NCBI GenBank assembly: GCA_015956445.1
Contig: WIUZ02000024.1
Location: 248,001 to 312,000 of the forward strand
Source of the DNA: Thelephora terrestris
Taxonomy: Eukaryota > Basidiomycota > Agaricomycetes > Thelephorales > Thelephoraceae
Reading direction: 5' to 3'
DNA: 64,000 bases
A model generated the notes under the pieces. It did no database searches. It was not told the origin of the DNA and worked only from the letters and a program-made list of their open reading frames with translations. Of the stretch, positions 16,020 to 43,619 are shown piece by piece. The translations under genes were made by a program, and so were the position numbers. Position 1 is the first letter of the stretch. Every line of letters starts with the position of its first letter.

Positions 16020-17438
16020 ATGGATCAACCTCGAAATATGGATCAAAAAGTCACACAGGAACTCGTATCACGTCTCACCGAGGAGGTGACGAACCTAAAG
16101 AACGAGAACTCAATGCTCAAGGTACTATCATCGAAATCCAGCGAACCCTTCCCCATACACTCTAACGCAATTCAAATTAAACAGGATCAATTGGGCATTT
16201 CAGGGGATGAAAACACCGGTGAAAGTGTTCGGAGTTATGACGATCTCCTCGAAGAGATAGACGGATTGAAGGATGAGCTGTCGCAGAGACCGAGCCAGGA
16301 TGTGGTGCGTAACGCCCCCGTGCATCCCCCCCTTCTCTCACCGTGTCTTAGGTCGATGAAATGGAAGGAAAAATTGCGAAACACAAGGACCGCAAACGGG
16401 AATGGGTGCGAACATTCTCCTGCTTCATCACCATTACCCCCTAAATATAAATGTCACGCAGCGAGACCAGATAAACTACTTAACCTCGCAACTGTATGAA
16501 GCAGAATCTGGTAAGGATGATCAAGAGGGCCTGAAAGAGGAGCTGGAGTGGGTTCGTCCTCTTCCTGAGATCCGTTAGATGGACAACTCATTATTGTACA
16601 GGAGGTCGAGAAGCTTGGCAAGGACTTCAAGGAAAAGATACAGAAGAAAGAAGAAGCTATTGCGCGACTCGAGGCCCAGCAGGCGGTGGGTACATGTTAT
16701 ATTGTCTTTTCGTCATGTCCGAGTGACGTTCTCCAATCATAAGCATACATTCGACATTCGCGAGTTTCTCCGTGGAGGGTTGGGTGAAGTTCCTTCCAAG
16801 CCCAGCCCTAGGGCCTTGAATTTGAAAGAAGTACGTAGGTTGAAAGCGGTGAGTTGAGGTTTACATGCATTCTTGATGACACTTCTCCATCTTGCATTTT
16901 GCTCGAACCACTCCCCAAAAAGAGAAAGTATGCGCTGCACTGCTAGAGCTGAGACCCATTCCTGACCTCCTCCACCCCAAGGGACAACAATATTTTCCCC
17001 CTCAAGGAGGCTGGCGCGATCAAATGGGCAGATCAAGGCGGACGATTCGTGGTCGCTTTGCCTTCGGTGATCTATAACGGAAAGACACAGCTCACGGAAC
17101 CATTTCATGGCAACGTCGTTACAGACTTCTTGTATGAAGTCTTCGTGGATGCGAATGCCACCTACTATGGATCCTATCGGTGCATCAAAAGGGCCCCGGT
17201 GGAGTGGAATGTACTAACATCACTTGGTCAGGGAGTAAGCACCGTCCTCCGTAATCATGGGGCTCACCCTCTGACGAAGCGGCAAGTTCGTGACATCCTT
17301 CTTGAACCGTCTGGTAGTCGAGAAAGATCTTGCTGCTCCAGCCATCGAGTCCCTAGTTCGACACATGTACGCGACTGGCTCCCTGAAGGCAGAATGCTTG
17401 GCATTCCAAAGCGAAGGCTCTGGCGAGGCGCCCTATTA
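16020..17438 (+). CDS. coiled-coil array gene, copy alpha
   Basis: First member of a family repeated at least six times here; I know of no characterised homologue. The first exon (MDQPRNMDQKVTQELVSRL...LKNENSMLK) is a leucine-heptad coiled coil, followed by small exons that extend it (SYDDLLEEIDGLKDELSQRP, VEKLGKDFKEKIQKKEEAIA). After a linker (FLRGGLGEVPSKP) comes the conserved C-terminal module AIKWADQGGRFVVALPSVIY, YYGSYRCIKRAPVEWNVL and VVEKDLAAPAIESLVRHMYA. Unlike the other copies it ends in EGSGEAPY and lacks the basic tail. Exons are short with roughly 50-70-nt introns. It is the most divergent copy of the left cluster, with its closest relative the dead copy at 38,450. Confidence 0.65.
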
Positions 17439-17674
17439 AAATTCTCGTTGGGGCGATTGTCGGACAGCCGCAGCGGCCCAAGGCGTATGTTATGGGATTT
17501 ATTCTGTAGTTGGCCCCATCTGCGTTCGTGTGACAGAATGTAACCTGCCTTTGCGGCCACAGCGCCTATACTCCCCTTTTAGGAAGTCACCGTTAGAGCA
17601 GTCCCGATCCGCTTCGTGCCTCCGGGCGCGATCGGTTTCCATCCCACCCCCAAACTGCACCTTTCATCGTAATC

Positions 17675-19278
17675 ATGGACCAAATTCAAGATCATCTTGA
17701 CCCAGAAGTTGCAAAGGAGGTTCTCACAGCCCTGAACAGGAAAATCGTAAACCTGAGAAGCGAAAACGCTCAACTTCAGGTGCGATCATATGATGCAAAA
17801 TCGTTCCGCGCTGTACGAGGCGATCTCAACCCAACAGGGCCTGTTGAGCAGGGCTTCCATCAAGACGGAGGAGAATGCATCGCACGAAGGTAACACCCAA
17901 CGTCTCTTGGAAGAGATAGAAAAACATAAATCCGAACTGGAACGGAGGCCGGGTGTTGGGGAGGTCGGTACTGTGATTTTACATCAGTTACATCGCTCAG
18001 GGTACACCAGGTCGCTGCATTAGAGGAAAAGCTCAAGGAAAGCGAGCAGCGTGGGCAGGAGTTGGTTCGCTTCCCTCCCTGCTTTCTGTCGTCTATTTTC
18101 GAGTTGATATCGCGTAGGGAAAACAAGTGGATCTGCTCAGCACGAAATTGGAAGAATCAGAATCAGGGAGGCAGAACGCAGTGGCTGTCCAAAAAGAATT
18201 GGAAAAGGTTTGTCCCACCTTCATCGACCTGTCACGATCTTCTACACACGGCCACGTAGGAAGTAGCGAAGCTTTGTGATCTACTCAATGAAACGCACGA
18301 GACGGAAAAGGCGGCCGTGCGACCTAAGCCCTTGGCGGTATGTGCATACGGCGCTCGTGCCAGGTGGGGTATGGTACAACAAGCTCACCTCACCAGAATG
18401 TGTCAAACTTGCGCAAGTTTCTTGACGGCAAATTTATTGACCTGCCACCAAGACATCCACCCGCGTTCATGTCCGCAGAAGGAAAGCGCTGGTTTACGCA
18501 AGTACGTCTTGTTCCGTTCCGAAGTTGCACTCGGCCTCACCTCCCGCTTAAGGCGACCCAGCAAAGGTATTCTCCAGCTCCCCAAACTACGCCTTCCATT
18601 CTTGGCTGAGAATGCAAAGGGGAGAAGAACCTTTCTCCTCAAATGCTCCCCGGAGTATCATATGGGCAGGTGAAACCGGGGGATGCGTCGTGCCGTTGCC
18701 TTCGGTCCTATACAATGGGAGAGCGCAAGCTCCTGAAGAGTATCGCTATAAACCCGTCCCAAACCACTCGTATCACCTCTGGGGTATTGACGAGCGGAAT
18801 CATTACCGCACGTACCACGGCATCTATCGATGCGTCGCGGTGGTAAGCGGTGACTGGAGACACCTCGAATCCATTGATCTGGAAGTGAGTGAACGAAGTT
18901 CCTAGCTGATGTAAAATCTGCCATCTGATAAGGTGGCGAGGTTGCGGGTCGCTTTCTAGGTCGTGTTGTGGTTGAGAAAGGCTTCGCTACGGATATGGTT
19001 GTTTCTTTCGTCAAGAAACTGTACCAGACCGGTGCCCTGATGATTGATTATGTTTTGTTGCGGTATGAAACCTTCGACGGCGCGACTGTGAAGCAAGTAC
19101 AGACAGCGGGTGGACCTCCAACAATCATCAATGTACCTTCTCCTCACACCGGTGAGTACCTTTTGTCCCTTTTGTGCTTTGACGCCATCCTTAGTAAACG
19201 AAAGGCAGTAAGCGTCCGAGCGACCAATATCAGGAGTGGGCGGATGGTTCGGTCAAAAAACCAAAGTTACAGAATTGA
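17675..19278 (+). CDS. coiled-coil/NLS array gene, copy beta
   Basis: Exon 1 encodes MDQIQDHLDPEVAKEVLTAL and then NRKIVNLRSENAQLQ. Further short exons carry SIKTEENASHEGNTQRLLEE, VAALEEKLKESEQRGQEL, VDLLSTKLEESES, then FRKFLDGKFIDLPPRHPP. The C-terminal module reads IWAGETGGCVVPLPSVLYNG, YHGIYRCVAVVSGDW and VVEKGFATDMVVSFVKKLYQ. The last exon, joined through a G|GC splice, ends GSKRPSDQYQEWADGSVKKP-KLQN. The two basic clusters KR and KKPK, separated by about 15 residues, look like a bipartite nuclear localisation signal. All visible splice phases are consistent, so this copy looks intact. Architecture (long coiled coil + globular module + NLS) suggests a nuclear dimeric protein; the function is unknown. 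Confidence 0.65.
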
Positions 19279-19289
19279 GAGGCCGAAAC

Positions 19290-19456
19290 CTACGTCTAGC
19301 TGAACCTGACATGTGCAGTGCTATGAAATATATGAGATTATGTGCCGGTGCGGAGATACCCTCGCACACTCCTACCGTCCTCTTCTGAACCTCTAGGCAC
19401 TTGAAGAGGTGTCCGTCCCCTTCGTCGGTGTCATGTGCTGCTGCAGGGTAGCCCAC
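19290..19456 (-). pseudogene. 3' tail remnant of the TTL-like gene
   Basis: A short minus-strand segment still reads DEGDGHLFKCLEVQ, matching the ERDTYLFKCLEVQ end of the TTL-like gene at 23,850. Nothing else of that gene remains. Together with the preceding coiled-coil copy it marks one duplication unit. Confidence 0.6.
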
Positions 19457-19532
19457 GTGACTGCCGCGTCTAACGCGATCGCGGCTTTCTAGCCATCAGC
19501 GCGGAGTCCCCACCGCACCTTTGTTCGCAGCC

Positions 19533-21143
19533 ATGAACCGAACTCAGGACCAACTTGACCCAGAAATTGCAAAGGAGGTCATTGCACTCCTCAACAGGAA
19601 AGTTGCCGAACTGAGGAGCGAAAACGCCGAACTTCAGGTACGTTCACATGCTTCAGAATCGTCCTCCCGCGGCGTGAAGCGATCTGGACACAACAGGGTC
19701 GATTGGACAAATACTCCGTCAAGAAGGAGGACGAGGGCCATGTTTCTTTAGACGATAACAACACCCAACGTCGCCTAGAAGAAATAGCAAATTGTAAGTC
19801 CGAACTCGAACGGAGACCGGGTCCGGGGGAGGTCAGTTTTGTAACCGCCCACCATTCATTCGCCTTGTTCAACGTACATCAGGTTTCCACGCTGGAGAGG
19901 AAACTTGAGACAAGCGGGCAGCGTGGACAGGAATTGGTGTGCCCCATCCCCTCTGCCTTGTGGTCATAAATTTCCGAGTTAACATCGCACAGGAACAACG
20001 AGTTGACCAACTCAACGCGAAACTAGAAGAATTTGAGTCTGAAAAGCGAGCTGCAGCCGCGATCCAGGCAGCATTGGAGAAGGTTCGTCTCGCCTTTGTC
20101 AGTCTGTTGCAATCTTCCAAACGGTCGGCCACGCAGGAAATGGGGAGGCTTTTTCATGCACTCAATGAAAGAACTCAAGAAAAGGAAGCGGCTGTTGCAC
20201 AGCTCATGCTCTTGGTAGTATGTGCATGCGATGTCCTGTGCCAGCGGGAGCATGGTACAAACTCACCTTTAGGACACTTTTGACTTCCGCAAATTTCTTG
20301 CTGGCGGGTTGATCGCCCTACCAGCAAGACATCAACCCGTGCTGATGACCAGAGAAGAAAAGCGGCGGTTTAAGAGAGTACGTATCTGTTTCATTCCAAA
20401 GTTCTGCTCAGTCTCGCATTCCACAGAATGTTATCCAGCAAAGGTGTGCCTCAGCTTCCCAACTACGCCTTTTGTTCCCCCCTAAAGGTTTGCAAAGAGG
20501 GGACAAGTCACTCTCCACAAATGCTCCCCACGGGATTATGTGGGCAGGCGAAAAAGGAGGATGCGTGGTGCCATTCCCTTCGGTCGTATACATTGGGAAA
20601 TCAAAGGCCATTGAAAAAAACAGCAAGAGATTTGATGTGAACCACTTATATCAGTTCTTCGGCGTTGATGATACAGGTCAGCATCAAACCTACCATGGCT
20701 CCTATCGCTGCGTCGCAGTGGCGGCGACCGACTGGGAAATTCTCGCATCTATAAATCGAGAGGTGAGTAGATGAGCCTCCGATCGATATCTAGTCTGACG
20801 AGGTTGTGAGTTTGCGCAACGTTTTTTAGACCGTGTTGTGGTTGAGAAAATGTTCTCTCCGCAGAAGGTCACTTCCTTCGTCGAGGAACTGTACCGCACT
20901 GGTGTCCTGAAGGTCGAATACGTCGCTCTGCAGTATGAAAGCTTCGACAGTGCAACCGTGGAGAAAGTTAAGTCAATGGGGGGACCTCCAACAACCATTA
21001 ATGCACCCCCCAATACAGGCGAGTTTCTTTTGCCCATAGTGCGTCTACACCATCCTCAGTGAACAACAGGCGGTAAACGTCCGAGCGACCAGCATCAGGA
21101 GTCGGCCGGTGGTTCAGTCAAGAAACCACGGCTAAAGAGTTGA
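19533..21143 (+). CDS. coiled-coil/NLS array gene, copy gamma
   Basis: Same exon plan as copy beta. Exon 1 reads MNRTQDQLDPEIAKEVIALL, then NRKVAELRSENAELQ. Later exons carry NTQRRLEEIANCKSELERRP, VSTLERKLETSGQRGQEL, QRVDQLNAKLEEFESEKRAA and FRKFLAGGLIALPARHQP. The C-terminal module is IMWAGEKGGCVVPFPSVVYI, YHGSYRCVAVAATDW and VVEKMFSPQKVTSFVEELYR. The final exon gives GGKRPSDQHQESAGGSVKKP-RLKS, again a bipartite basic pattern. It looks intact. About 125 bp downstream begins another piece of the antisense TTL-like gene, repeating the unit structure. Confidence 0.65.
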
Positions 21144-21268
21144 GGGATTGAGGTCTATGATTAGCTGAGCCCGACATGCGCAATACTATGGGATACGTGA
21201 GATTATGTGCCAGTGTGGAGATATCCTCGCACACACCTACCACCCGCTCTCTCCTCTCACCTGGACCT

Positions 21269-22141
21269 CTAGGCACTTGAAGAGGTACTTGTCCCCTTCA
21301 AATGGTTCACCTGTTTCCAGGTGGGTCCCATAACCACCCTCGCAATCCTCTCGAACAAATCCTCCAGGATCCAGGTCAGTCGAGGGTCAGTCAACTCAAT
21401 AGCAGGCTTAGAGTTCATCTCCAGCAAATAAGGCCGGAGTTTTGAATTCTCGCAAGTAGCCAGAAACTCGACACCAAAGAGCTCGAATGCATTCGGGAGG
21501 GGCTGAAGTTTCAATCGCCTTAGCCGTGTGGAGCCACGAGTGACGAGGAGTATAGGGTAACCGTGTGTCATGCCTGTAATGATAGGCCAGAATGACGGCC
21601 GGAGAATGTTCAATGTTGTCGTCGGACCCTCTGGCGCTGGGAGTAAGTTCGTCCATTGACCCTCGTCAACCCATATCTTCTCTGTTTTGTTGTCCTTTGT
21701 GGGGTGTTCAAACAATGCCTCCTTGAATTCGGTTGTGTTACGAGACGGCTAAGCAGGGTCTGTACTGATCTGAATCTTATCGCTGGAGTTGACCATTGCC
21801 TCGAGAATATCTGTGCCAGGTCTCGGCTTCTTGATAAACGCTGGGTGGGTGAACAGTGGTATCCGGCGGGCGGATGGAGAAGGAATCTCAATATGTCATC
21901 CAGATGAGCGTGCTGGAGCGACTGTGAGGTTGCCGAATAATGCTAGAGCGGTCACCCGAAGTATCCCTGGAGAATAGAACTTTACTTCTGGGAATGGTTG
22001 CACATCATGAGAGGCATGACGAGAGAGGTTGTACTTCCCTTTTGCTATTGAAGTAAAACTCAAACTTTTAGGGTGTTTAGGTAGAGCAGCCCACGTGACC
22101 ACCGCGTCTGATACACCGATCACGGCGTTCCTGGCCATCAC
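21269..22141 (-). pseudogene. chimeric fragment: unknown upstream sequence fused to the last TTL-like exon
   Basis: Bases 21,269-21,530 (minus) carry the TTL-like exon PLPNAFELFGVEFLATCENS with TWILEDLFERIARVV, complete with the end of its upstream intron (CGGCTAAGGCGATTGAAACTTCAG). Immediately upstream, where the intact TTL-like gene has ATP-grasp exons, there is unrelated open sequence (WVDEGQWTNLLPAPEGPTTT, ILRPSFWPIITGMTHGYPI) and, further up, MARNAVIGVSDAVVTWAALP. The switch lies inside the intron, near 21,545. I do not recognise the upstream part. It may be the remains of another gene captured at the duplication breakpoint. Confidence 0.55.
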
Positions 22142-22181
22142 CGTTTCCCGTCAGGGCGGCCACACCTTTCATATCGTGGCC

Positions 22182-23758
22182 ATGGATCAAATCCAAGACC
22201 ACTTTGACCCGGAAGTTGCAAAGGACGTTATCGCACTCCTGAACAGGAAAATTGTGAACCTGAGGAGTGAAAACGCGGAACTTCAGGTACGGTCATACAC
22301 CGCAACATTGTCCCTACGCCGTATGAACTGGTCTGAACCCCAACAGGGCCAATTGAGGAAATCTTCCCCAGATGGTACATTGAACCAAGTAACACCCGTC
22401 TCCTGGAATAGATCCGAACTCGAACGGAGACCAAGTCTGAGGGAGGTTAGTATTGTGGTTGTCCGCCATTCACTTCGCTCAACGTACATCAGGTCGCCGC
22501 GCTTGAGGAAGAACTCAAGGAAAGCAAACAGCGTGGACAGGAACTGGTTCGCTCCCCTCCCCTGCTTTCTGGTTGTTTACTTTCAAGTTGACATCGCGTA
22601 GGGAAACCAAGTGGATCTGCTTAACGCGAAATTAGAAGAATCAGAATCAGAGCTGCAAAACGCGTCGGCTTTCCAAGAACAATTAGAGAAGGTTTGTCTC
22701 ACTTTCATCGGCCCGTCGCAATCTTCTCCACGCTGCCACGTAGAAAATAGAGGAGCTTTGCCATATACTCAACGGAAGAACGGAAGAGAACGTCGTCGCG
22801 CAAGTCGAGCCCTTGACGGTACGTGCCTACGGTTTCTCCTGCCCGTGGAAACATGGTACAAGGTTGCCTCACTAGAATACGTTTGACTTCCGCAAATTTC
22901 TTGATGGCCAGCTTATTAGCTTGCCGCCGAGACATCCACCCGTGTTCATAACTAGAAAAGAAAGGCATCGGTTTATGCAAGTAAGCCTTCGTTTCATTCT
23001 CAAGTCCTGTTCAGTCTCACCTCCCCACCCAAGGTGACCCTGCAAAGGTATTCCTCAGCCCCACAAGCAACGTGTCCAATTCTCCTCTAAAAATTTGTAA
23101 GGGGAGAAAAATATTTCAGCCCAACTGTTACTAGGAGTATCATATGGGCAGGTGAAAACGGAGGATGCGTGGTGCCGTTGCCTTCGATCCTATATAATGG
23201 GAAAACACAGGCCCCTGAATATTATCGCCATAAATTCGTCGTAAATCACTTGTATCCATTCCTCGACATTGATGATCTAAATGATCACCGCAAGTACTAT
23301 GGCACGTTCCGCTGTGTCACATTGGTCAGGGCTGATTGGGCATGCCTCGAATCCATTGACTCAGAGGTGAGTAAACAGTCTCTAGTTGATGTCGAGTCCG
23401 CCATCTGACAAGATTGTGAGGTTGCGGGTCGCTTGCTAGGTCGTGTCGTTGTTGAGAGAGACCTTACTCAGCAGACGACCGTTTCCCTCATCGAGCAGCT
23501 GTACCAAACTGGTGCCCTGAAGGTTGATTATGTTGTGCTGCGGTATAAAAACTTTGATGATGCGCTCATGGAGCAAGTACGGCCAACGGATGGACCTCCA
23601 ACAATCGTCGACGTACCTTCTCCTCACACCGGTGAGTACCTTTTGTCCCTTTAGTGCTTCAGCGGAATCCTCAGTAAAGAAAAGGCGATAAACGTCCGAG
23701 CGACCAATACCAGGAGTGGGCGGATGGTTCAGTCAAGAAACCAAGGTTACAGAATTGA
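22182..23758 (+). CDS. coiled-coil/NLS array gene, copy delta
   Basis: Fourth tandem member. Exon 1 reads MDQIQDHFDPEVAKDVIALL, then NRKIVNLRSENAELQ, nearly identical to copy beta. The second exon has lost about 16 bases relative to beta (the region coding EEIEKHK), which changes the local peptide but returns to the SELERRP frame. Later exons carry KLEESESELQNASAFQEQLE and FRKFLDGQLISLPPRHPPVF. The C-terminal module is WAGENGGCVVPLPSILYNG, YYGTFRCVTLVRADW and VVERDLTQQTTVSLIEQLYQ. The last exon ends GDKRPSDQYQEWADGSVKKP-RLQN. It is followed 92 bp later by the intact, convergent TTL-like gene, so this unit is probably the parent arrangement. Confidence 0.62.
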
Positions 23759-23849
23759 GAGGTCGAAGGCTACTTCTAGTTGAATTTGACATGTGTGGTG
23801 GTGTGAAATATGAGATCGTGTGGCGGAGTGGAGGTACCCTCGCACACAC

Positions 23850-25303
23850 CTACCACCCACTTTTCCCCCTCACCTGGACCTCTAAGCACTTGAAGAGGTA
23901 TGTGTCCCTTTCCGATGGCTCACCTGTTTCCAGGTGTGGTCCCACAACAACCCCCGCGATCCTCTCGAACAAATCCTCCAGGATCCACGTCAGTCGAGGG
24001 CCAGTCAACTCAATAGCGGGCTCAGCGTTTATCTCCAGCAAATAAGGCCGAAGTTTTGAGTCCTCGCACGTAACCACAAAGTCGACACCAAAGAGCTCGA
24101 ATGCGTTCGGGAGGGGCTGAATTTTCAATCGCCTTAGCCGGTGGAACCACGAGTCACCAGAAAAAATGTTACCTGGAAGTGGACTGGGCTTTCCAAAGCG
24201 GCTTTGAAAGTCTCCGAAAGAATCTCACCCATCTGGTCGATGAGATCGTTCGTATCCTCTTCCGTCAACTTCCGATCCCAACCTGAGGAAAGGATTTGGC
24301 ATCCTACCAGCTCGCTGAGCAGCCGTACACCGGCATCGCCCCTGTCCGTTTGTAACGAAGTGTTGGTCAGGTGGGGGGTAAGTGACGGATTCGAATCGCC
24401 GGCTTCCGGAACAACGAAGGGCACGGAGGAGAAAAGAGCCAGTATTCGGGTATAAAGGTATACTTTGAGAGCACCAGAGGCAATGCAATACACCCGAAGG
24501 TGGAACTTGATATCCATTGCGTCAGATCGGTAGCACGTTACGACACTAAAGAGCTATCTTACCTTGTAGCCCTGAAGATTGGCGACGGCCTTTCCAGCGC
24601 CTTGCCCAGGGTCCAGGAGGAGGGGCTTCGCAAGGTACTCCTACTTCGTGTGAGAATATATCTGGATTTTTCGAGGTTCCTGCGAGCGAACCTGCACGAC
24701 AAAATGACGCAGTTGTGAAGTGATAACAGCAGTGTCCCCCTCGTTCTCGTCTTCCGCGTCTTCACGTTCCTCGAACTCTTCAAAGATAGACTGCAACCCT
24801 TCCCTCGAGTCAAACAGCCGGATGCCCATACCTCTGTCCGCCATTCCAGGTTTCAAGATGAACCAACGAGGTGTAGAATCGCCAGGTTCTTCCAAGAACT
24901 CTGCGAGATCAAATAACTCGTCCGTCCACATCTCGTCGAGTTCATCCGCGAATGAGAGTTCGATTTCCCAAGTACGTGGGACAGCACGCACAAGGGGAGA
25001 GCCAGGATGCTTAGTGACATAAGAACGAATCGTTCGAGAGAGAAAATGTTTCCGGATCAACGCTTTCCTGAAGGTGTAAGAGGACGAGAGGACGGTGCTT
25101 CGAGCCCGAGTCAGTTCGTGGTCTATAGAATCGTATGCAGCCCATTGTATCAGTAGTTTTGCCGAGGGATTGGAGGTGAAGTCTTCGGGAAGAAGAGATT
25201 GGATGATAATAGAACGAGGGAGAGAATTGAGTGCCCGTTCGACCAGGGATTTTGTCAGCGGAGCGCTAGGCCAATCTACAAACGCTGTAGTTGTTTCTGT
25301 CAT
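23850..25303 (-). CDS. tubulin-tyrosine-ligase-like (TTL) ATP-grasp protein, Pby1-type
   Basis: The product begins MTETTTAFVDWPSAPLTKSL and carries the TTL ATP-grasp core in order: RWFILKPGMADRGMGIRLF (ATP-binding KP..., Gly-rich), then LRHFVVQ|EYLAKPLLL across an intron, DIKFHLRVYCIASGALKVYL, TPHLTNTSLQ (Mg/ATP site, with Asn), PLPNAFELFGVDFVV and SKLRPYLLEINAEPAIELTG (the E.N metal-binding motif). All key motifs are present. In budding yeast the related Pby1 combines a SurE domain with a TTL domain; this gene has only the TTL half. TTL enzymes ligate amino acids to tubulin or other acidic tails, but the fungal substrate is unclear. Fragments of this gene are repeated at 19.3, 21.3 and 40.9-42.1 kb. 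Confidence 0.85.
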
Positions 25304-25472
25304 CTATGCAATTGATGTTGTAAGGGGCATGTAAAAGAGTGTTTCATTTTTTCCCTACCCGTAGCTTGACGAGGGTGTGGTCGATTGACCTGCAATCAAG
25401 AGCTCAGTGGCAAATCGATGATCGACTCAATGGCGTTTTTACTTGATAAGTACAGTCTCCACGGTATGTATC

Positions 25473-26679: not shown

Positions 26680-26889
26680 CGTGGTTTACAAAATGGGGTG
26701 GCGGTGGACGGATGATTGAGCGCGTTCTCTTTTCGGTCGGAGTCCGTTTCGATCGACTCACTGCTGCCAAGGGCTGTCAGCTGTCACTTGACCACCGTCG
26801 TCTTGGAGATTATGATTGTCCTCGATATCATTGTTCTTCGCCTCATTCACGCACGCACCCCTCGTTTCTCCTCCACTCACGCCTTCGCA

Positions 26890-27085: not shown

Positions 27086-28527
27086 CTAACTAGTGAACAG
27101 TGCCGATACTCTCAAAAAGTCAGACAAATCCGAGTCTGAGCCGGCGGTACTGGAGGAGGTCACAATAACGGGGTACACTGGCGGTGGCGTCCAAGTATAT
27201 GAAGCGGGAGAAACGCAATCAAGCAGTTCCCGGACGGTTGGTCGATCCGCACTCGACTCGCCCCAACACGATTGGACCAACCTCCAAAGTGTGTCAGAAA
27301 ACCCTAGAGACTCGGCGTCGAACGGTTTTATCGGGCGCTCGCCCCTCATCACAGCGGGCACGGGCGTGGGGGCGATTAAGTGGTGGAATGGCCGGAGCCC
27401 AGTCAAAACCTGGGATGGGTAAGCAAGGAACGATTATGACTATCAGTGCGACCAGCTTACCTCGTATATCACCATTCCAAGTGCATAGCAATCCGATTCA
27501 CGAGTCGGACGACCGTTTGCACCGAACCGTGATGGATCCAGCAGCTCTGGGCTCATCCAACCGTGCGTTCCACCAGATGAAACCGCAGTTCCAGATAGGA
27601 TGGCAGTACTCATATCAATCATGGTCATGAGACCGAAATCCGCGACACGGGCGGTGCCTGTGACGTCAACGAGGATATTTGCCTTTTCCACTCGTCAGTG
27701 ATCTGAAAGGGTGTCAAGAATATTGCGCCTACCCCCTTGAGATCTCCATGAACAATCTTAAGTTCGTGAAGGTAGGTCACACCAGACATGACCTCAGCGA
27801 GCTAATGGTTCTTTGTGAGCTGGATAACATCGAGGGGGCCGACAAGGGGTCTCACAAGTTTCAAGCGGTTCGCCTTTGGATTGGACCTTGCGTACCGGAT
27901 CACGTTCCCGTTGGGCATCCACTCGGTAAGAATGCTGAAGTGGCATCGGTCTTCAGATACCGAAACTCCGAACAAAGGTAAGATATTCGTGTGGCTTAAA
28001 TGTTTCCAGCAGATGATCTCTCGACACAATCCCTGGCCGCAATGAGTAATGACAGAAGACAAGGTCCATCAAAAATACCTTGAAAGTTTTGGGGTCATCC
28101 CTCCCGCGTACCCCGAGAGACTTGATGGCGACAGGGAGTCCTAAGTACTCTCCGATGCTTACGTCTGCAAACCCACTGCGACAGTAAAAGGTCCCCACAC
28201 GGATGAGTCCTCGTTGACGAATATACGAGGCGGGTATGATACTGCGGTCTTCACAGATCTTGGAAAGGAGCCTCAGACTCCTTTGCCAGAGTTTGTCATC
28301 CATATCGGACTGCGCGAGAACCTGAACGCAGTGTTGTTGGTGATCGAAGGCGAGACGCATAATCTGTTACTCACTTGGTCGAGAAAATTGACAAACGCCT
28401 GGGCTTCGCTTCCTTGGAAGCTCCGCACAACGTTCACGTTGGATCGACAACTTAAGAGAGAACGAACTCTGGTAAGACACTCATCCGAGGCAACCTTTAT
28501 TGTAGAGATGTTTGCCCAGGATTGCAC
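27086..28527 (-). CDS. TKL-like protein kinase 2
   Basis: A paralogue of kinase 1 in inverted orientation. In order: FVNFLDQ, LWQRSLRLLSKICEDRSIIP, CRSGFADVSIGEYLG (Gly-rich loop), VAIKSL (Lys), ICWKHLSHTNILPLFGVSVS, ILTEWMPNGNV, IVHGDLKG|ANILVD (catalytic loop split by the same intron as in kinase 1), ADFGLMT, GWMSPELLDPSRFG and the C-lobe ending LLDCVSPASYTW. All catalytic residues are kept and the intron positions match kinase 1. The C-terminus ends in a Ser-rich tail (SDLSDFLRVSALFTS) without the membrane helix of kinase 1. The far N-terminus is undefined, and the first Met at 28,527 is not at a conserved position. Probably functional; target unknown. Confidence 0.7.
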
Positions 28528-28703
28528 ACCTGGTCATTTGATGAGCCCGTGATCAGCCTACAGGCAGAGAAAGGGGAGCGCACCGAGGGGGCCCAGCTCA
28601 CAGGACATGTCTTTCCTGCCGGGTGCTGCGACGTTGGGAGGGGGGTTGGTAGAGCACGCCCGAGTGATAGTGGTTATATATCCACCGGCAGGATTACTCT
28701 ATT

Positions 28704-28965
28704 CCCATGCGCTCATTCTGATTTGGTACCGCGGACTGGGAACCCTCGAACGCGCATGGCCGAGGTGGTGCGGTGTAGTCTTCTTACGTCTTCTTTCGGG
28801 CTGCCGAACGCGACCTCAGCTACATAATTTGAATAGGCATCAAAGAGATTAAAGGATCAGAGCTCTAATCCCACGCGCGGATTCTGATTTGGTACCACGG
28901 ACCGGGAACCCTTGAACGCGCTTGATGGCCAAGGTGGGCGGTACTTATAGCGAACGCGACCCCCG
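28704..28965. repeat. 166-bp tandem repeat, units 1 and 2 (left of the LINE)
   Basis: A unit starting CCCAYGCGC..ATTCTGATTT, GGTACCRCGGACYGGGAACCC occurs at 28,704 and again at 28,870 (period 166 bp). It ends in CGAACGCGACC and an ATTAAAGGATCA spacer. The second unit is interrupted by the LINE and the array resumes at 38,054. No protein is encoded. These units look like a small satellite-type array. Confidence 0.85.
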
Positions 28966-31775: not shown

Positions 31776-34700
31776 TCAGCGACTTCGACCTACGCATGGC
31801 ACTCCCGCCAGCGATCCCGACCCTCCAAGCTCTATCGACCGGAAACTGGACGAGACCGGACAATGTCTGGTGCACGAGCCACTTGATTGACCTATTCACT
31901 AACTGCTCCACCAACCCAGGACTTAGAGGCCCAAACACTGACCATCTCCCCATCCTCTCAACGATAGACATCCCACTACCCCGCAACCAACCCAAGCAAT
32001 CGCGAAACTTCCGCGACATTGACTGGAAGGCCTTCAACCAACACCTATCCGACCTCCTCGCCACCCACCCCCAGCCCCGACGCATCACCACCCCCACGGA
32101 ATTCCGATCGTCCCTCGATGTTATCAACAACACGCTGAAAGCCACCATCGAGGATCAGCTCCCCATCAGCAAACCACTACCGCACACCAAGAGATGGTGG
32201 AACAGCGACCTGACAGACCTTCGAAAGAAGAGAAACAGACTAGCTAACGCCGCTTACAGATGGAGAGGCACTCCTGACCACCCCACCCACCAGCAACTCA
32301 AAACCGCCAACAAACAGTACGCTGAGTTGATCGAGAGCGCGAAGAAAGAGCACTGGGAGAACTGGCTAACTAACGCCGCAGAGAGAGACATATGGACGGC
32401 GAACAAATATGCCACTGACCCTCCAACAGACGGTGGACGTACACGCATGCCCACGCTCAACTTCACAGACCCCGAAGGCAACACGAGACGTACCAGCACC
32501 AACCAAGAAAAGAGCAACGCCCTAGCTAACTCCTTCTTCCCCCCCTCCCCCACCGGAGAGACCAGCCATCCCGCACACCCAATACCCGGAACCTGCTAAC
32601 ATATTCCAATTCTTCACCCCTGAACAGATCCGCAAGGCCGCCAAACGTCTTGAAGCCTACAAGGCCCCTGGCCCAGATGGGATCCCAAACGTAGTCCTTA
32701 AAAAGACCATTGACACACTAATCAGGCACGTCTACTATGTTTACAGGGCAATCTTCGAACTCGACATCTACCCCGAAGAATGGAAGGAATCCATCACAGT
32801 GGTGCTGCGCAAACCGGGTAAGCCATCCTACGAGGAACCAAAAGCGTACAGACCCATCGCACTCCTCAACACACTGGGAAAACTCTTTTCCTTGATAGTC
32901 GCTGACGATCTTAGCCACTACTGCGAATCGCGAGAGGTATTCCCCGGCAACCAATTCGGCGGCAGACTAGCCCGAACTACTTCAGACTCGATGCTCCTAC
33001 TGACACACAGAATCAAGGAAGCCTGGAGAAGCAGAAAAGTGGCCTCCATCCTTTTCCTTGATGTACAGGGGGCCTTTCCCAACGTAGTCAAGGAAGTTCT
33101 CATCCACAACATGCGGAAATGTGCTGTGCCAGAACGATACGTACTACTGACCGAGCGAATGCTAACGGGTCGTCGAACCAAACTCTCCTTTGATGACTTC
33201 CTCTCTGACTTCATAGACATCAACAATGGGAACAATCAAGGATGTCCCCTCTCCATGATCTTCTACGCGTTCTACAACGCCGGCCTGCTAGAGATCAGCC
33301 CGCCCACCACAACGGATGAACAGCAATTCGGATACGTCGACGATGTCGCACTGCTCGCCATAGGTAACGACCTCACAGAAACGCACAGTAAGCTCAACGA
33401 CATGATGACGCGAGAGGGCGGAGCCTTCGAGTGGTCAATGACACACAATTCGAAGTTCGAACTGTCCAAACTTGCACTCATGGACTTCTCCACCAGACCG
33501 CACCAACCCACCCCGCTGACACTAACCGACCCTTACACAAATGTCTCGACCACGATTGCTCCATCACTCACATACTGTTTCCTAGGAGTTCTATTTGACC
33601 CCAAGCTAAGATGGAACGCGCAGACGGAACGTGCCAGTCGATCAGCCTCAGCATGGATCAACCTAGTCCGCAGACTCGCTCGTACCTCATCGGACATCTC
33701 CGCCAAAGGTATGAGACAGCTATACACAGCAGTCGCAATCCCCAAGATGTCATACGCGGCCGAAGTTTGGTACACCCTACCGCATCACCCCACCCCCGAC
33801 ACGAAACGTAGACTAGGCTCAATCAAGTTCACACAGAAGCTCATCACAGAACAAAGAAAGGCAGCTATCACCATCCTAGGAGCAATGAGAACCACAGCCG
33901 GTGACGTACTCAGTATCCATGCACACCTCCCCTTCCCACACCTATTATTTCTCAAGGCACTAATCCGTGTCGCGACCCGTCTAGTTACCCTTCCTGCCTG
34001 CCACCCGCTACACAGACCCACCCAACGAGCCGTCAGAGGAGCACCGAAAAGACACCGGAGTCCACTCCACCTGCTTTTTCTCACCACCGCAGTAAAACCG
34101 AAAAACTACGAAACGATCCAAATCACCAGGAGACAACGTAATTACGGCATGCTAGCCAACGTCAAAATAGAGGAGAACAGACAAAAGGCTATCCTCAACG
34201 CACACAACATCCAAGGAACGGCGATATACACTGACGGCTCGGGTTATGAACACAAGATCGGCGCAGCGGCAGTTCTCGTCAGAAACGGCACCACCATCAG
34301 AACACTCAAATACCACCTAGGAAACGAGGAGGAGCATACGGTATACGAGGCGGAGGCAATAGCAGTGACGCTAGCCCTACACATGCTGACAGAACTTAAC
34401 CAACGTATCAACAGAGTCACGATAGGCATGGACAACCAAGTGGTCCTACTCGGCCTACAGAATCAGAAGTCGAAGCCAGGGCACCATATAATGGACAAGA
34501 TACACGACGCCCTACAAGATTTCCAGGCGATGCAAGAGAGGAGGCGAGGAGTCAAGTTGAAAGGATACAGGAAAGGCAAGGGAAGAACAAGACTGGAGGA
34601 CGGGAGCAGAGGTTGGGAAGAGTGGAAGCTGAAGAGATGGTGTCACGTCAAGTTTATATGGACGCCGGGACACGAGGACATAGAGGGCAACGAACTGGCG

Positions 34701-34801
34701 GACGAACAGGCAAAACTCGCAGCGCAAGGCGAATTGAGCGACAAACAAGACCTACCCCCCTTCCTACGAAGGAAACCACTCTGTCAGGGTTGTAGGCCTG
34801 C

Positions 34802-35425
34802 TTACTGTTTGTGGGGCGTTAGAGGATTAGCGGATGGGTGTGGAGTGTCGGGTCGAGTTCGGAAGGGGGTTCCGGGTGTGGAGACGAGAGGAGGGGGAAT
34901 ATCAAGCGAGAGTGGTGACTCTGTTTGATAAGGGTGGACGGGCGAGTTGTAGTCTTGGCAGAATTGATTTAACTGCTGAATGAACGGCTCGAAGTTTTGA
35001 TCGCTGAGTTGTTCGAAGTGAACAAGGTATTCTATAATCGAATAAGGTAGTTCAGTCGGAATGTCCCACCAAAGGACGATGAGAGCAGGGCAGTGAGTGT
35101 GAACGTTGGTGGTTAGATGAACTTTGGGAGAAGGAAAGTAAAAGGCGGGGCTAACGCTGAAATAGACAGTTGCTAGGACACTCTCAGTGAGGTCTGAGTT
35201 CCAAAGGAACTGATGGTCTGCGCCTAGAAGGAAAGGAGGAGTAGTGACTCCTGCGTCGAGGGCAGCGAAGGGACGATAGTAAGGGAAATGAGTTAATAAA
35301 CCGTTGGTACGATTTACTTGGAGACTTCTAATGAGTTTATACTCCCAGATAGATCTCCTGGCGTCGGGGATATTGGGGGGGATGACTGGACTAGTAGAGG
35401 GGAAAGGATTGGGTGCGCTGAACAT
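34802..35425 (-). CDS. uncharacterised ORF of the 2.3-kb insertion, 207 aa
   Basis: An open frame with no recognised domain. It has a Pro/Ser-rich start (MFSAPNPFPSTSPVIPPNIP), then SIWEYKLIRSLQVNRTNGLL, an aromatic stretch (THFPYYRPFAALDAGV), PFLLGADHQFLWNSDLTES and hydrophobic ALIVLWWDIPTELPYSIIEY; the tail is Pro/Thr-rich. No signal peptide. The stop codon lies only 20 bp inside the element end, so the gene fills the right-hand side (minus-strand reading) of the insertion. A TATATAAG box on the same strand near 35,575 lies about 150 bp upstream of the ATG. No intron is needed. It may be element-encoded. Confidence 0.5.
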   Translation of the reverse strand: MFSAPNPFPSTSPVIPPNIPDARRSIWEYKLIRSLQVNRTNGLLTHFPYYRPFAALDAGVTTPPFLLGADHQFLWNSDLTESVLATVYFSVSPAFYFPSPKVHLTTNVHTHCPALIVLWWDIPTELPYSIIEYLVHFEQLSDQNFEPFIQQLNQFCQDYNSPVHPYQTESPLSLDIPPPLVSTPGTPFRTRPDTPHPSANPLTPHKQ

Positions 35426-36083
35426 ACACTGGCAGGAAGATTCCTGCTTTAGGATGAGTTAGAAGGGGTAACACGTGAGGAGAATTCCTCAAGCTTACTT
35501 TGTATTCAGATGGTAGGTAGAGGAGTACAGAAGAGATTGAGAATGGGGAAAAGAAAGGAGCGAACTCTCTTCCTTATATACCCAATCCTCTACAGGAGTC
35601 ATTACTTTACAACGAGTCAAACAGGAATCAACATGGTCTGTGCGTAGTTTAGGGTAGGTTGGGCGAGTCAGGGGAGTGGGGCTCTGGAGCGACGAATGAC
35701 GAAATGAAATAGGGGAACAATAGTAAAGGAGTCATTAGGAGCATAATGGGGATTTCTCACGATCAATGGTGGTAATAGAAGACTGATGGGGATCTCTCGT
35801 GATCGGTGGGGATTTCTCTCGTTTCATGGTGGCAGTAAAATGTGGATGGGGATTTCCCATGATCGATGGGGATTTCTCTGAATTGATGGGATCGCGATTG
35901 GGGTTGAGGGTTCGTTTATCCTAATGAGGATGTTAATGGATAATAAGTTATTGTCTTCCCCTTTTGGTTTTCTTTGAGTCAGGATGTATTTAAGTCAGGG
36001 GGGTTAGTGGTCGTTCCCCTCATCGCCTCTTTTCCACTCCCACAATTACCACTACCACCCCTCTTCTCCAAACATCTACTACT
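35426..36083. promoter_or_regulatory. central divergent promoter region of the 2.3-kb insertion
   Basis: 658 bp between the two divergent start codons. It contains TATATAAG (minus strand, ~35,575) and GTATTTAAG (plus strand, ~35,985) placed suitably for the two ORFs, and a cluster of GATGGGGATTTCTC-type direct repeats between them. No coding signal. A two-way promoter is inferred from layout. Confidence 0.45.
35745..35890. repeat. cluster of GATGGGGATTTCTC / CGTGATCG repeats
   Basis: Six or so copies of (GA/GG)TGGGGATYTCYC occur in about 145 bp, several linked by RYGATCGGT or ACGATCAAT to the next copy. They are interleaved with ATGGTGGYARTARAA. The spacing and repetition look like an array of protein-binding sites between the two promoters of the insertion. 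Confidence 0.6.
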
Positions 36084-36821
36084 ATGTCTGCTTTCGCCGC
36101 CAACAACGTCGTTCTCAACGCCGCCGCCACCCCCTTTACTCCGTCCTTTGAGACGGATGCTCCCTACAACGTGGAGCAGCATCTGTATGACTCCCCTGCC
36201 AACATTGCTCATGACAACAGAGTTGCCGTCGACTTCCTCACCGTTCACAATGCTCCCGCCGAATTCTGGGAGCAAGCTGGGTATGAAGACCCTAGACTTT
36301 CTAGGCCTCAGGCTCAGCCTGGTCATCCTGGAGCCGTCCTTCTGTTGGACGCCATGGAGAGGGAGAGGGAGGATAGGATTTTGAAGCTGGAGAAGCGTGT
36401 GGACCGCATGTACGTCATCATGAGCAGTTTGAACGAGGACTTCTCTCACTTTGCTTTGGAACATTGGGGACCTTTCCAGGCGTCTCTCTTCCGATACTTC
36501 GGACATCAATGCCACGGAGCTTATTGCACCGACCCCCCTTGCAAGTCCCCAGTCATCCCTTCGCCACCGCCAGGATCGGGGCGTTCCTCTCCCTCCATCC
36601 CCTCCCTGGAGTCCTGCCCCAGTTCGCCAGATGGTGGAGAGGTCCCAGAAGAAGAAGAACCGCAAGAGTCCGATGACTCGTTCTGGTCAACGCTGTCGTC
36701 CCTCCGACAAGTCACGTCAGGTTCGGATGAAGTTGAAGGTGGAAGTGGCGGGTCTCCAAGACCGCTATGGGTTCGCCTTAGTGAGCGCAGCCTTGTCGGA
36801 CGTGAAGCGGGAGATGCATGA
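36084..36821 (+). CDS. uncharacterised ORF of the 2.3-kb insertion, 245 aa (acidic frame)
   Basis: The frame begins MSAFAANNVVLNAAATPFTP. It includes a helical region with likely coiled coil (LLLDAMEREREDRILKLEKR, VDRMYVIMSSLNEDFSHFAL) and a Cys/His patch (FGHQCHGAYCTDPPCKSP). The C-terminal third is acidic and Ser-rich. I find no known family. Another frame (36,451-36,987) is open across its 3' half and carries a second Cys/His-rich stretch, so the true C-terminus may come from that frame through an unseen intron or frameshift. Transcribed away from the minus-strand ORF. Translation is likely given the length and the 5' context; the exact end is not settled. Confidence 0.5.
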   Translation: MSAFAANNVVLNAAATPFTPSFETDAPYNVEQHLYDSPANIAHDNRVAVDFLTVHNAPAEFWEQAGYEDPRLSRPQAQPGHPGAVLLLDAMEREREDRILKLEKRVDRMYVIMSSLNEDFSHFALEHWGPFQASLFRYFGHQCHGAYCTDPPCKSPVIPSPPPGSGRSSPSIPSLESCPSSPDGGEVPEEEEPQESDDSFWSTLSSLRQVTSGSDEVEGGSGGSPRPLWVRLSERSLVGREAGDA

Positions 36822-36987
36822 TAGTTTGTATCATGATGTGGAGGGGTGTAGAGAGTGTTGGCAAGATCCGGTGACGCGAGCGTATTCATATTGTCCTGAG
36901 AGCGTACATAATCCTCACCACTTCGCTCATCGTTGCCCGTTTGCTCAGGACTGTGCGTGTGATGTAGATCCTTTTGTTCTTGTCTGA
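36451..36987 (+). CDS. overlapping frame of the 2.3-kb insertion with Cys/His-rich end
   Basis: This frame overlaps the acidic one and continues 166 bp further. Its distinctive part is basic (ERSQKKKNRKSP), then KLKVEVAGLQDRYGFALVSA, ALSDVKREMHDSLYHDVEGC and a Cys/His-rich end (CRECWQDPVT, YCPESVHNPHHFAHRCPFAQ, DCAC). Such spacing could bind zinc. It is either the real 3' coding part of the 36,084 gene (an AG acceptor lies at 36,719-36,720, directly before the VRMKLKVEV stretch) or a separate overlapping gene. I cannot decide from one sequence. Confidence 0.35.
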   Translation: MLWNIGDLSRRLSSDTSDINATELIAPTPLASPQSSLRHRQDRGVPLPPSPPWSPAPVRQMVERSQKKKNRKSPMTRSGQRCRPSDKSRQVRMKLKVEVAGLQDRYGFALVSAALSDVKREMHDSLYHDVEGCRECWQDPVTRAYSYCPESVHNPHHFAHRCPFAQDCACDVDPFVLV

Positions 36988-37637
36988 ATTTGTAGTTCTT
37001 GTTAGCCCTCCTTGTACTATTATTATAGCGAATAAGACCAATGTCTTGAATTACTTGTGTGATTTTGGACACTATGTCACACGTTCGTGACACACTCCCA
37101 GTCAGCATATCTGCAACACGACAACTCCTCAAGAAGGACCTGAAAGCGAGATGGCTCAGAGACTGGGCAGACTCACCACGCCATGACCAAACACACTCCA
37201 TCGACAACTCATTCCCCTCCGACGACTACCTACACATCATCGACCAACTGCGACGTAACCAAGCGAGCCTTCTGACTCAGCTCAGAACGGGACACATTCC
37301 TCTGAACCAGATCCTATTCAGAATCAAACACGCTGAAACGCCCCACTGCCCACACTGCGGACCAGGAGCGATCGAGACCATAACGCACCTCATCTTCTTC
37401 TGTCCACACTATGCCAGAGCAAGGGGGCTGCTCATGGCTAGCGTCAGCAGAAAAGAGTTTACGTCCAAACACCTACTGAGCAGCAGAAAAGGAATCCCGC
37501 ACCTACTCCGTTACGTCAGCGACACCGGTCGCCTGAGGGCAACTTTCGGGGAAGTTCGCCCGAAGGACAATTTCGTCATAAAGGAAAAAGAAGTCAAGGA
37601 GAAGTCGAACGCGAGGACAACTCACCATGAGTCCTAA

Positions 37638-38034
37638 CACATTCGTCGAGGATAACCCATCGACCTTTCAGGCACCCTTTGGGAGTATCGGAAGGGAGGT
37701 TCCTAGTACGACGGGGAGGGCCGACAACCGCCTTACACCAATCCACCGTCCACCGCTAACACACCACAGCTCACCTCTCATCACTCGGGAATTTCCCCTC
37801 ACACAAAACGCTGTTTAGTCCGACTTAGATTCCATTCAACACGCGAACCAAGATCAAGAAGGAGAACGGAGAAGGAAGGACAGGAACGAGGGCGAAAGGA
37901 GGGACGTGCTGAGGGCCATTCCACAACACCGATTACAAGCCATTCTGCCTGAAGGCCAAACCACCTTCCACCCGTCTCACAGATCGCGATGTGTAACATA
38001 GGTTTAATTACCTCCGCACAATAAACTAGCATCG
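37638..38034 (+). other. LINE 3' untranslated region
   Basis: 397 bp between the ORF2 stop and the poly-A tail. No gene. An AATAAA-like signal (CAATAAACTAG) lies about 15 bp before the A-run. Confidence 0.7.
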
Positions 38035-38053
38035 AAAAAAAAAAAAAAAAAAA

Positions 38054-38235
38054 GAACGCGACCCCCGCTACATAGTGGGAATTGGCATCTAAGCTGTTAA
38101 AGGATCACTTTATTCCCACGCGCTCATTCTGATTTCGTACCGCGGACTGGGAACCCTTTAACGCGCTTGATGGCCAAGGTGGTGCGGGATAGCCTTCTCT
38201 CGGGATGCCGAACGCGACCTCAGGACGGTCGCTGG
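38054..38235. repeat. 166-bp tandem repeat, unit 3 (right of the LINE), with 14-bp target duplication
   Basis: It begins with the second copy of the LINE target duplication (38,054-38,067) and the rest of unit 2, then a full further unit from about 38,114 (CCCACGCGCTCATTCTGATT...CCGAACGCGACC). Aligned with the left side, it rebuilds a continuous array of at least three units before the LINE arrived. Confidence 0.85.
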
Positions 38236-38449
38236 CTCGCCTCCCGCTGCGGTCTAGACCGCGTATGGCGGTGGCGGTTTGACCCCTATATCTGATCAGA
38301 TGTCTTTGCTCAACCTCGTCACCGGGAAGATTCTCCACCCGTAGAGTGTGAAGTCGTGGATTCGTATGCAGGATCGCGAGAGAGCCAGATAGCCGTTGTT
38401 GGTATCTTGCCTTTCATCTCCTTTTTCATGCTTGGATTATGACGCCCCA

Positions 38450-39130
38450 GTCTTCACCAGCAATTGTTTTCTGCCCGTCCGCATGCAGTCTTCGCTTGTG
38501 AGAATAAATACAAACGGACGTCAACTTTTTGGTGGCGCAGGGGGAGATTACCGTCCAAGCACAACCCTAGGGCCTCGACTTGTAAGAAATATGTGAGGTG
38601 AAAACGGTACGTTGGTTTACATGTGTCGACGATGCTACTTTCGACCCTTGGCATGTTTCTCTCGAACCATCCCCCCAGACAATTATGTTGCTAAAGCCAG
38701 ATTCAGTTACGACGCTCTGTTAAGTAACAAACATATACCCCTCCCTCAAAGAGGCTGGCACGATAAAACGGGCAGACGCAGACGAACGGTTCATGATATC
38801 TTTGCCTTTGGTGATTTTTATAGTGGTAAAGCACAGCTCACAGAGATACTCCATGGCGACATCGCCGCAGACTTCTTGCACGAAGCCTGTGTGGTGAATA
38901 AATATATTGTCTACTACGAATCTCATCGGTGCATCAAGAGGGGTTCGGTGGACTGGGATGTGCTGGCATCTTTTGGTCGGGTGGAAGTGAGCACCGCCTT
39001 CTGTAATCGTGGTGGCATCCTTCTTGAACCATTTCATAGCCCAGAAGAGGCTTGCTGCTCCAGCCGTCATTACCCTGGTTCGTTACATGCACGAAAGTGG
39101 CTGATCAGTGATCACTCGTTCGCGTCTGCG
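38450..39130 (+). pseudogene. coiled-coil array gene, truncated copy alpha-prime
   Basis: This segment matches 16,700-17,400 (copy alpha): linker ...STTLGPRLV, then the C-terminal module. It lacks the whole coiled-coil N-terminus. Within the module, two extra bases in GTGATTTTTATAGTGGTAAAG shift the frame between GTIKRADADERFMISLPL and YSGKAQLTEILHGDIAADFL. The end is also shortened (HARKWLISDHSFASA). Not expected to be functional. It shows that the alpha-beta order of the left cluster is repeated to the right of the LINE. Confidence 0.75.
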
Positions 39131-39229
39131 TAAATTTACTTCCGCGTAAGTTTCGAGTTTCGAGCCTAGTACCCGGTGTGATCGATTGATCACTTTCTAC
39201 CGCAATCTTCCGCTTCTCCACCTCCAGCC

Positions 39230-40892
39230 ATGGATCAAGGCCACATCGACCCTGAAGTCGCACAAGAAGTGATCGCGCTACTACACAAGAAAGTATCCGG
39301 CCTGAGAACAGAGAATGCTCAACTCCAGGTACGGCCAACCGTGGATCAATCGATCAGGAGTCCCCTACGCAGAATAAAGTGATTTGGACCCGACAGAACC
39401 AACTAAGCAACTCTATCGTGAAGACAGAGGGTGAAGCCCACGGATCCCCGGATGGTAACACTCGACAACTACTGGAAGAGATAGAGCATTGGAAGTCCGA
39501 ACTTGAACGGAGACCGCGTCTGGAGGAGGTTAGCGTTGTCGCTATCCATTGCTTGCTTCCTCAATGTGCGTCAGGTTTCCGCGTTAAAGGAGAAGCTCGA
39601 GAGAAGCAAACAGCGTAAACAAGAATCGGTGGAGTCTTCCCCTCGCTCTGGCTCCGTTGCCGTCCGTTCTCCCGTGATTGACACCTCGCTCAGGAACGAA
39701 ACCTGCAGTCTCAGATAGACCAACTACGGAAGGAGCTCGAAGAGACACAGACTGTGATGCAAGGGGAACGCGCAGTTAGAGAGGCGCTGGAGGAGGTTTG
39801 TCTAGCATCACTTAGGTTGTGGCGACAGCTACCTCATCGTTGCACAGGAAATCCACAAATTGTGCGGTGAGCTGAACAAGAGAACTCAAGAGAAAGAAGA
39901 GGCTCTCTCCCGGCTCAGATGCCAGCAGTCGGTGTGTGGGTTCAATGCTGCTTGTTCGCGGTGCTATAAAACTCGGAAATCTTCAGGATAACTTCGACGT
40001 TTCCAAGTTTCTCCGCGGCACGTTGGAAGAGTTGCCTCCTATGCCCAACCCGGTGGTCGCGGCCAGAGAAGGAGTGCCTAGACCTAGGGGTGTACGTACC
40101 ATCACTGGCTGTTGATTCCATCAATCGGTCTCATCTCCCACTAAAAGGTGACAATAGAAACCAGAAAGTAGGTACTATACCGCTGAACCAGATTTGCCAC
40201 CTGCTGACCTAAAAAAGGGGCAAATCCATCCTTTATGTGAATGGCGACAATACGATCCAATGGGCAAACAAAGGTGGAGGATGTGTGGTACCTTTCCCTC
40301 CGGCCATATACAACGGAAAGACGCACGTCGTGGAGCAATCCCATAATGGAACAGTGGAGAACCGCCCATTTGAGCTCTTTGGGGCCGATGGACATGTCAT
40401 CTACTATGGAACCTACCGCTGCATTAAAGTGGTATCCATGAACTGGGGGGCGCTCATAAGTTGTTTAGGTCAAGAAGTGAGCACGCGGTTCTATTTTTCG
40501 TTGAAAATTTGTCTCTCTAATGAGGTGATCAGTTTTCGAATGCTTTCTTGGAGACAACAGTCATCCAAGATGGCCACGCAGCTCCAGTTACCCGTTCGCT
40601 CATGGAGAGCATGTATAAGAGCGGGATCCTGAAGGCCACTTGTGCGGTGCTCCGATGTGAGGGCTTCGATGAGCATATGGTCATGAAGCAAGCACAGTCT
40701 GCGGCTGGGCCTGTCACCCACAATAGTGAGTGGTTTGCTCTTTTGTTCGTGCGCCAGTGTGTTCACCGGCATACAACAGACGGTAAACGACTGAACTACC
40801 ATGGGGAAGGTTCACAAGGCAAACATAAGAGGGCGAAGTTGACGGGCGGTAAATTGAGAACTCTGGGGGCGCACCGAAATACCAAGAGATAG
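39230..40892 (+). CDS. coiled-coil/NLS array gene, copy beta-prime (right cluster)
   Basis: Exon 1 reads MDQGHIDPEVAQEVIALLHK and KVSGLRTENAQLQ. Later exons carry NTRQLLEEIEHWKSELERRP, VSALKEKLERSKQRKQES, IDQLRKELEETQTVMQGERA, EIHKLCGELNKRTQEKEEAL and FDVSKFLRGTLEELPPMPNP. The C-terminal module is IQWANKGGGCVVPFPPAIYN, YYGTYRCIKVVSMNW and PVTRSLMESMYKSGILKATC. The final exon ends with a longer basic tail (NGKRLNYHGEGSQGKHKRAK then LTGGKLRTL, closing HRNTKR), again two basic clusters. Splice phases look consistent, so the copy is probably intact but more diverged than the left-cluster members. Downstream lies a dead TTL-like gene in the same convergent arrangement as copy delta. Confidence 0.62.
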
Positions 40893-43596: not shown

Positions 43597-43619
43597 CCCA
43601 AGAGACTTGGCACCCTGAC

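Follow-up and report, generated by a model that had tools for sequence, protein, structure and literature searches.

A tandem array of coiled-coil genes with a divergent DUF6697-like module in Thelephora terrestris

The stretch of DNA analysed here (the window) comprises 64,000 nucleotides of the basidiomycete Thelephora terrestris, positions 248,001 to 312,000 of contig WIUZ02000024.1, which is C17 among the 60 contigs (40.6 Mb) of the genome that we searched. Between positions 16020 and 40892 of the window, on the + strand, lies an array of related genes whose products combine a coiled coil with a common C-terminal module. It consists of five intact genes (c1-c4 and c6) and one broken fragment (c5), with gene limits and exons given throughout as spliced models predicted from the DNA sequence alone. 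These models confirm what a first-pass annotation had described, namely six copies, four to the left and two to the right of a long interspersed nuclear element (LINE), one of them dead; the outer limits of the array agree as well. The intact genes are the following.

16020-17439 (+): gene c1, 9 exons, 321 amino acids, coiled coil plus module; splice model open throughout
17675-19278 (+): gene c2, 10 exons, 373 amino acids; splice model
19533-21143 (+): gene c3, 10 exons, 377 amino acids, GC donor at intron 9; splice model
22182-23758 (+): gene c4, 10 exons, 363 amino acids; splice model
39230-40892 (+): gene c6, 10 exons, 386 amino acids, divergent basic tail; splice model

Each of the five models has an uninterrupted frame between its ATG and its stop, and the intron phases, which had been reported as kept, are indeed identical in every gene (0,0,0,0,0,0,2,0, then 1 where a tenth exon exists). 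A phase of 1 for intron 8 of c2-c4 was considered and dropped, as another donor/acceptor pair gives phase 0 in the five models. Introns measure 46-74 nucleotides and have GT-AG borders in 43 of 44 cases, the remaining one, intron 9 of c3, being GC-AG. Each gene has a micro-exon, exon 7 (5-20 nucleotides), and the length of exon 2 differs among copies (99-135 nucleotides). Gene c1 stops early, without the end of the module and without the basic tail exon. The description of the locus as a coiled-coil array with a common C-terminal module was borne out, both the zipper register of exon 1 and the module motifs CVVPxPS..YNGK and YYGTYRC, in a loose form, being present in five of five. A start of the form MDQ..D.DPEVA, proposed for all copies, held up in part: MDQ is found in four of the five and DPE[VI]A in four, c1 being the copy that lacks the latter. 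A SUMO-like motif in exon 2 of c2, c3 and c6 was rejected, showing no excess over shuffled sequences (rates of 0.37-0.57 per protein).

Exon 1 encodes a leucine zipper. Reading by eye, we find four heptads in the same register in all five genes, with I/V, I/V, N and L at successive a positions and Leu at three successive d positions.

22182-22286 (+): c4 exon 1, leucine zipper (a = I17, I24, N31, L38; d = L20, L27, L34)
16020-16121 (c1), 17675-17779 (c2), 19533-19637 (c3) and 39230-39328 (c6), all (+): exon 1 of the other genes, zipper in the same register

Asn at an a position favours parallel dimers. In having four heptads, Leu at d and Asn at a in all five copies, the array resembles the zipper part of bZIP proteins such as GCN4. 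In bZIP proteins, however, a basic region directly precedes the zipper, whereas the array models lack one, with few basic residues before the zipper and the MDQ..D.DPEVA start in c2, c4 and c6; the Pfam model bZIP_1, whose cut-off is 27.6 bits, scored c1 at 12.1 and c3 at 10.5. The 3.5-residue periodicity of the coil is matched by few shuffled sequences in c1 (4/500), c4 (17/500) and c6 (10/500).

The C-terminal module is encoded by exons 8 and 9.

23102-23366 (+): c4 exon 8, first half of the DUF6697-like module, CVVPLPSILYNGK ... YYGTFRC ... W
16982-17234 (c1), 18620-18884 (c2), 20498-20762 (c3) and 40218-40476 (c6), all (+): exon 8 of the other copies
23421-23631 (+): c4 exon 9, second half of the module and counterpart of the DUF6697 C-terminus, LYQTGALKVDYVVLRYKNFD
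17287-17439 (c1), 18941-19151 (c2), 20811-21018 (c3) and 40533-40725 (c6), all (+): exon 9 of the other copies

DUF6697 (PF20411) is a domain of unknown function in Pfam. A relation to it had been guessed at in the first-pass annotation, and the guess stands as homology, not as membership. At least eight loci in the genome score above the curated Pfam cut-off of 23.9 bits (four on contig C23, two on C1 and one each on C13 and C5, pieces of one gene being counted together). Locus L027 (C1:3.916 Mb) encodes a coil and, after it, a DUF6697 domain that scores 53.9 bits against Pfam (E 2.7e-14), and this is the domain to which a profile of the window copies (A1) could be linked. By hhalign the comparison gave an expectation value (E) of 1.8e-8 and a score of 52.5, where the best of 150 column-shuffled profiles reached 22.8, and by hmmsearch L027 ranked first among eight domains and 1000 decoys (E 1.7e-7), domains cut directly from the DNA being used in both tests. 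When A1 was run with hmmsearch over 1509 open reading frames from 13 loci outside the array, exons of L027 came first and second (E 0.0016 and 0.025) and the coil-plus-domain locus L036 third (E 0.19); the last exon of L036 reaches 20.1 bits against DUF6697, just under the cut-off. Single domains compared with A1 scored 25-27 for L001, L028 and L036, slightly over the shuffled profiles, and not above them for L003, L004, L005 and L008.

1592-2148 (L036, C45:1388.8 kb): coil-plus-DUF6697-like locus, 18.1 and 20.1 bits in two scans, with the same phase-0 intron as described below

The window copies and L027-type DUF6697 proteins share the same order, a coil and then a C-terminal domain, and the elements YxGxYR, Trp and Y..G.LK...L.C..F(D/N), one after another as named. 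They also share an intron. In eight of eight other loci (L001, L003, L004, L005, L008, L027, L028 and L036; in L008 the Trp is replaced by Val, and in L003 either of two acceptors, each giving phase 0, could be used) a phase-0 intron lies 6 residues past the conserved Trp, and in the five window genes a phase-0 intron follows it by 9 residues (c1-c4) or 10 (c6), both read by eye; the window genes thus have 3-4 more residues between. We would regard this shared intron as an independent sign of kinship with DUF6697. Four residues (Y, G, W and G) are invariant across the nine domains of alignment A5, which covers neither c2 nor L001, L005 and L008. A tree of 13 domains groups the window copies together (90/88) with L027 next (81/80). 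The branches of L027 and L036 in it are long, and its input contained seven wrong residues for L027 as well as doubtful junctions affecting the N-terminal part of L028 and one residue of L005. The N-terminal half of the domain is not confidently alignable with the window modules, and the last Cys of DUF6697 is retained among them in c6 alone. As judged from these comparisons, the conclusion holds that the module is a far-drifted homolog of DUF6697, by a homology that is transitive via bridging loci and does not amount to membership. We found no paper naming DUF6697 or PF20411 in the open-access literature, and nothing there on this family, subscription journals being mostly outside that coverage. 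Three of the DUF6697 genes (L001, L002 and L003) are clustered at C23:1.860-1.877 Mb, two of them with a nearly identical domain.

In four of the genes the last exon encodes a basic tail.

23685-23758 (+): c4 exon 10, bipartite basic tail, KRPSDQYQEWADGSVKKPRL (splice model and tail pattern test)
19205-19278 (c2), 21070-21143 (c3) and 40780-40892 (c6, changed form), all (+): exon 10 basic tail of the other copies

Four copies had been predicted to carry a bipartite basic tail, and this is what we find: the pattern, which fits a nuclear signal, is present in four of the five, and shuffled tails show it in 1-3%. The specific form KRPSDQ..VKKP[KR]L, also claimed for four copies, was recovered in c2, c3 and c4, whose tails are nearly alike, and not in c6, which retains the bipartite pattern although its tail sequence is very unlike theirs. 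The DUF6697 loci L003, L004 and L028 likewise have short clusters of basic residues downstream of the domain, as might suit nuclear proteins.

Protein identity among the five copies is 31-62%, so the wide residue variation described earlier is real, but the selection for diversity suggested along with it is not supported. The ratio of nonsynonymous to synonymous substitution rates (dN/dS) lies between 0.13 and 0.43 in all 10 pairs, with 95% bootstrap upper limits of 0.32-0.61; a ratio near 1 in all copies, which the first-pass annotation had set down as evidence against its own reading, was not found. By the Nei-Gojobori method dS is 0.55 for c2-c4 and 0.82-0.88 where c3 is compared with c2 or c4; pairs that include c1 or c6 range from 1.8 up to saturation. 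The copies are therefore old, and the high or saturated values that set c1 and c6 against the rest indicate old duplications; a tree of the full proteins joins c2 with c4 (97/96) and then c3 (100/99). Within the group of c2, c3 and c4 constraint is strongest on the tail (dN/dS 0.19-0.24), intermediate on the coil (0.32-0.36) and weakest on the module (0.37-0.55). Between c2 and c4, 24.5% of aligned intron sites differ (a distance lowered by alignment), as do 39% of the synonymous sites and 20% of the nonsynonymous ones. From these comparisons, selection on the old paralogs seems to be purifying, perhaps relaxed, and overall not diversifying, single positively selected sites being possible.

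Two alternatives are to be weighed against these values. The first is that the genes are decaying duplicates with no present function, of which the ancestral copy alone mattered. The dead fragment c5, the absence of the module end and tail from c1, and the dN/dS of c2-c4, which is the highest (0.43; 0.55 in the module), would agree with decay; we consider it improbable, as five genes of 9-10 exons are still open at a dS of 0.55 to saturation, with all phases kept, usable borders in 44 of 44 introns and bootstrap upper limits below 1 in 10/10 pairs. The second is that these are diversifying recognition genes, engaged in allorecognition or in conflict with parasites, in which variation itself is selected. 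A tandem array with a dead copy, low identity and an exon 2 of variable length could be expected of such genes, and yet dN/dS does not exceed 0.43 in any pair and pN is greater than pS (the nonsynonymous and synonymous proportions) in just 2 of 75 sliding windows (25 per pair among c2, c3 and c4), both in c2-c4, at columns 135 and 180. Since dS is saturated, age alone suffices to account for the low identity, and we hold this explanation, too, to be improbable.

A different kind of alternative comes from solved structures. The best sequence matches of A1 in the PDB were two MecI sequences (1okr and 1sd6; E 0.0063 and 0.0066) over residues 8-70, and a reversed profile gave no PDB match up to E 10. 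MecI is a winged-helix repressor; the likeness is weak, extends over the second half of the module and lies at the edge of noise, and on the side of the window module there is no sign of a wing or of DNA binding. MecI was still found after L027 was added to the profile (E 0.019 and 0.020), where a designed TIM barrel did better (E 0.005) and, taken by itself, the best MecI stretch had an E of 0.38; with other DUF6697 domains added its E was 0.9 (the L028 row of that alignment has a doubtful start). This match, at the edge of noise as it is, would be the sole lead to a biochemical role. That the half of the module encoded by exon 9 is winged-helix-like, and that the dimer binds DNA in the manner of MecI/BlaI repressors, would suit proteins with a zipper and a basic tail, but seems unlikely to us with so marginal a match, MecI as the sole winged-helix protein listed and a zipper that no basic region precedes. 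An SRA/YDG-type base reader, suggested by the YxGxY motif, was also considered and is backed by no sequence match among solved structures.

The explanation we prefer, which in our judgement has an even chance of being right, is that of an old tandem array encoding nuclear, zipper-paired adaptors with a divergent DUF6697 domain. The zipper and a further coil, the homology of the module, the basic tail in four of five genes and purifying selection on all five are evident in the sequence. Pairing, nuclear entry and a partner are what the rest of the proposal would add. Exon 1, with Leu at d and Asn at a, would form a parallel dimer, possibly also mixed pairs among paralogs; the tail would carry the dimer into the nucleus via importin alpha; and the two DUF6697-like modules of each dimer would grip a nuclear partner, either protein or nucleic acid. 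The tailless c1 would stay cytoplasmic, or would enter solely as the partner of a tailed paralog. A bolder proposal, which we think very doubtful, is that DUF6697-type modules in general are winged-helix-like nucleic-acid binders and the array a set of zipper-paired nuclear regulators with partner mixing, c1 being a natural dominant-negative by an Id-like logic.

Several observations weigh against the adaptor explanation. No window protein exceeds the Pfam cut-off for DUF6697 or for any family listed. The only trace of DUF6697 is in c6 (9.5 bits over 37 residues); at E up to 10 the family is absent from the matches of c1, c2 and c4, and it is absent from the 25 of 31 families listed for c3, whose module alone gave none. 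Against the five classical DUF6697 domains alone, A1 gave noise (hhalign score 11.3, E 0.53), which is why the relationship has to be called transitive; the score was 22.2 with L028 added to the five and 28.0 with L028 and L036. In the hmmsearch test the second rank went to L036 at E 0.025, and L001, L003, L004, L005, L008 and L028 fell among the decoys. The link to DUF6697 would thus depend mainly on L027 and the intron. The coil periodicity, a crude measure, is weak in c2 and c3, where 57/500 and 65/500 shuffled sequences reach it, and the tail of c2, c3 and c4 is a single inherited character and not three independent ones.

The sixth copy survives in part.

about 38551-39102 (+): c5, remains of a dead c1-like copy, reduced to its module part (blastn/tblastn, three-frame translation)

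The fragment is 67-68% identical to c1 in DNA, with its exon-8 part broken across two frames and an early stop in its exon-9 part; coil exons belonging to it did not turn up in a tblastn search at E 0.01. Queried with the five proteins (E up to 0.01), the window and three flank loci of 10 kb, one of them overlapping it, gave no further copies in tblastn. With c6 (E up to 0.001) or c4 (E up to 10) as query, searches of the whole genome, in which the best candidates alone were scored and which hence are not exhaustive, found no near copy elsewhere, returning the array's own locus and one match elsewhere at E 0.48. In viral contigs 59 pattern matches were seen, none of them confirmed as a relative. 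Related short sequences (28697-28942 and 38054-38223, 79-89%) lie to either side of the LINE region, close to where c5 is truncated.

A gene of the tubulin-tyrosine-ligase (TTL) family converges on the array, and partial copies of it are found by DNA similarity after c3 and c6.

23853-25303 (-): TTL family gene, PF03133
21272-21748 and about 40958-41965 (-): partial TTL copies

Self-comparison of the array revealed repeat units of about 1.8-2.1 kb with 69-75% identity, one of which extends well into the TTL gene: 22088-24160 matches 19450-21547 at 71% over 2.1 kb. A 203-nucleotide stretch at 21324 is 91% identical to 23938 and was assigned to the 3' part of TTL by that identity. Because the repeat reaches past the family gene into TTL, the copied unit probably comprised one family gene and a portion of its convergent TTL neighbour, which was probably carried along in the duplications; the array would have grown by such units, with some copies, such as c5, lost.

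Other features of the window are as follows. Yeast Pby1 joins SurE and TTL domains.

110-2065 and 42361-44360: two copies of about 2 kb in inverted orientation, 84% DNA identity; a reading frame resembling MMM1 (PF10296) lies in the right one
2651-4067 and 27171-28588: inverted duplication, 76% identity; the left copy overlaps a protein-kinase domain
48828-49448 (-): SurE domain (PF01975), in the same window as TTL

The array takes the DUF6697 family beyond the reach of its Pfam model and presents a new architecture with testable parts, namely a zipper, a module, a basic tail and one tailless copy. It also illustrates that old, drifting paralogs can resemble genes under selection for diversity.

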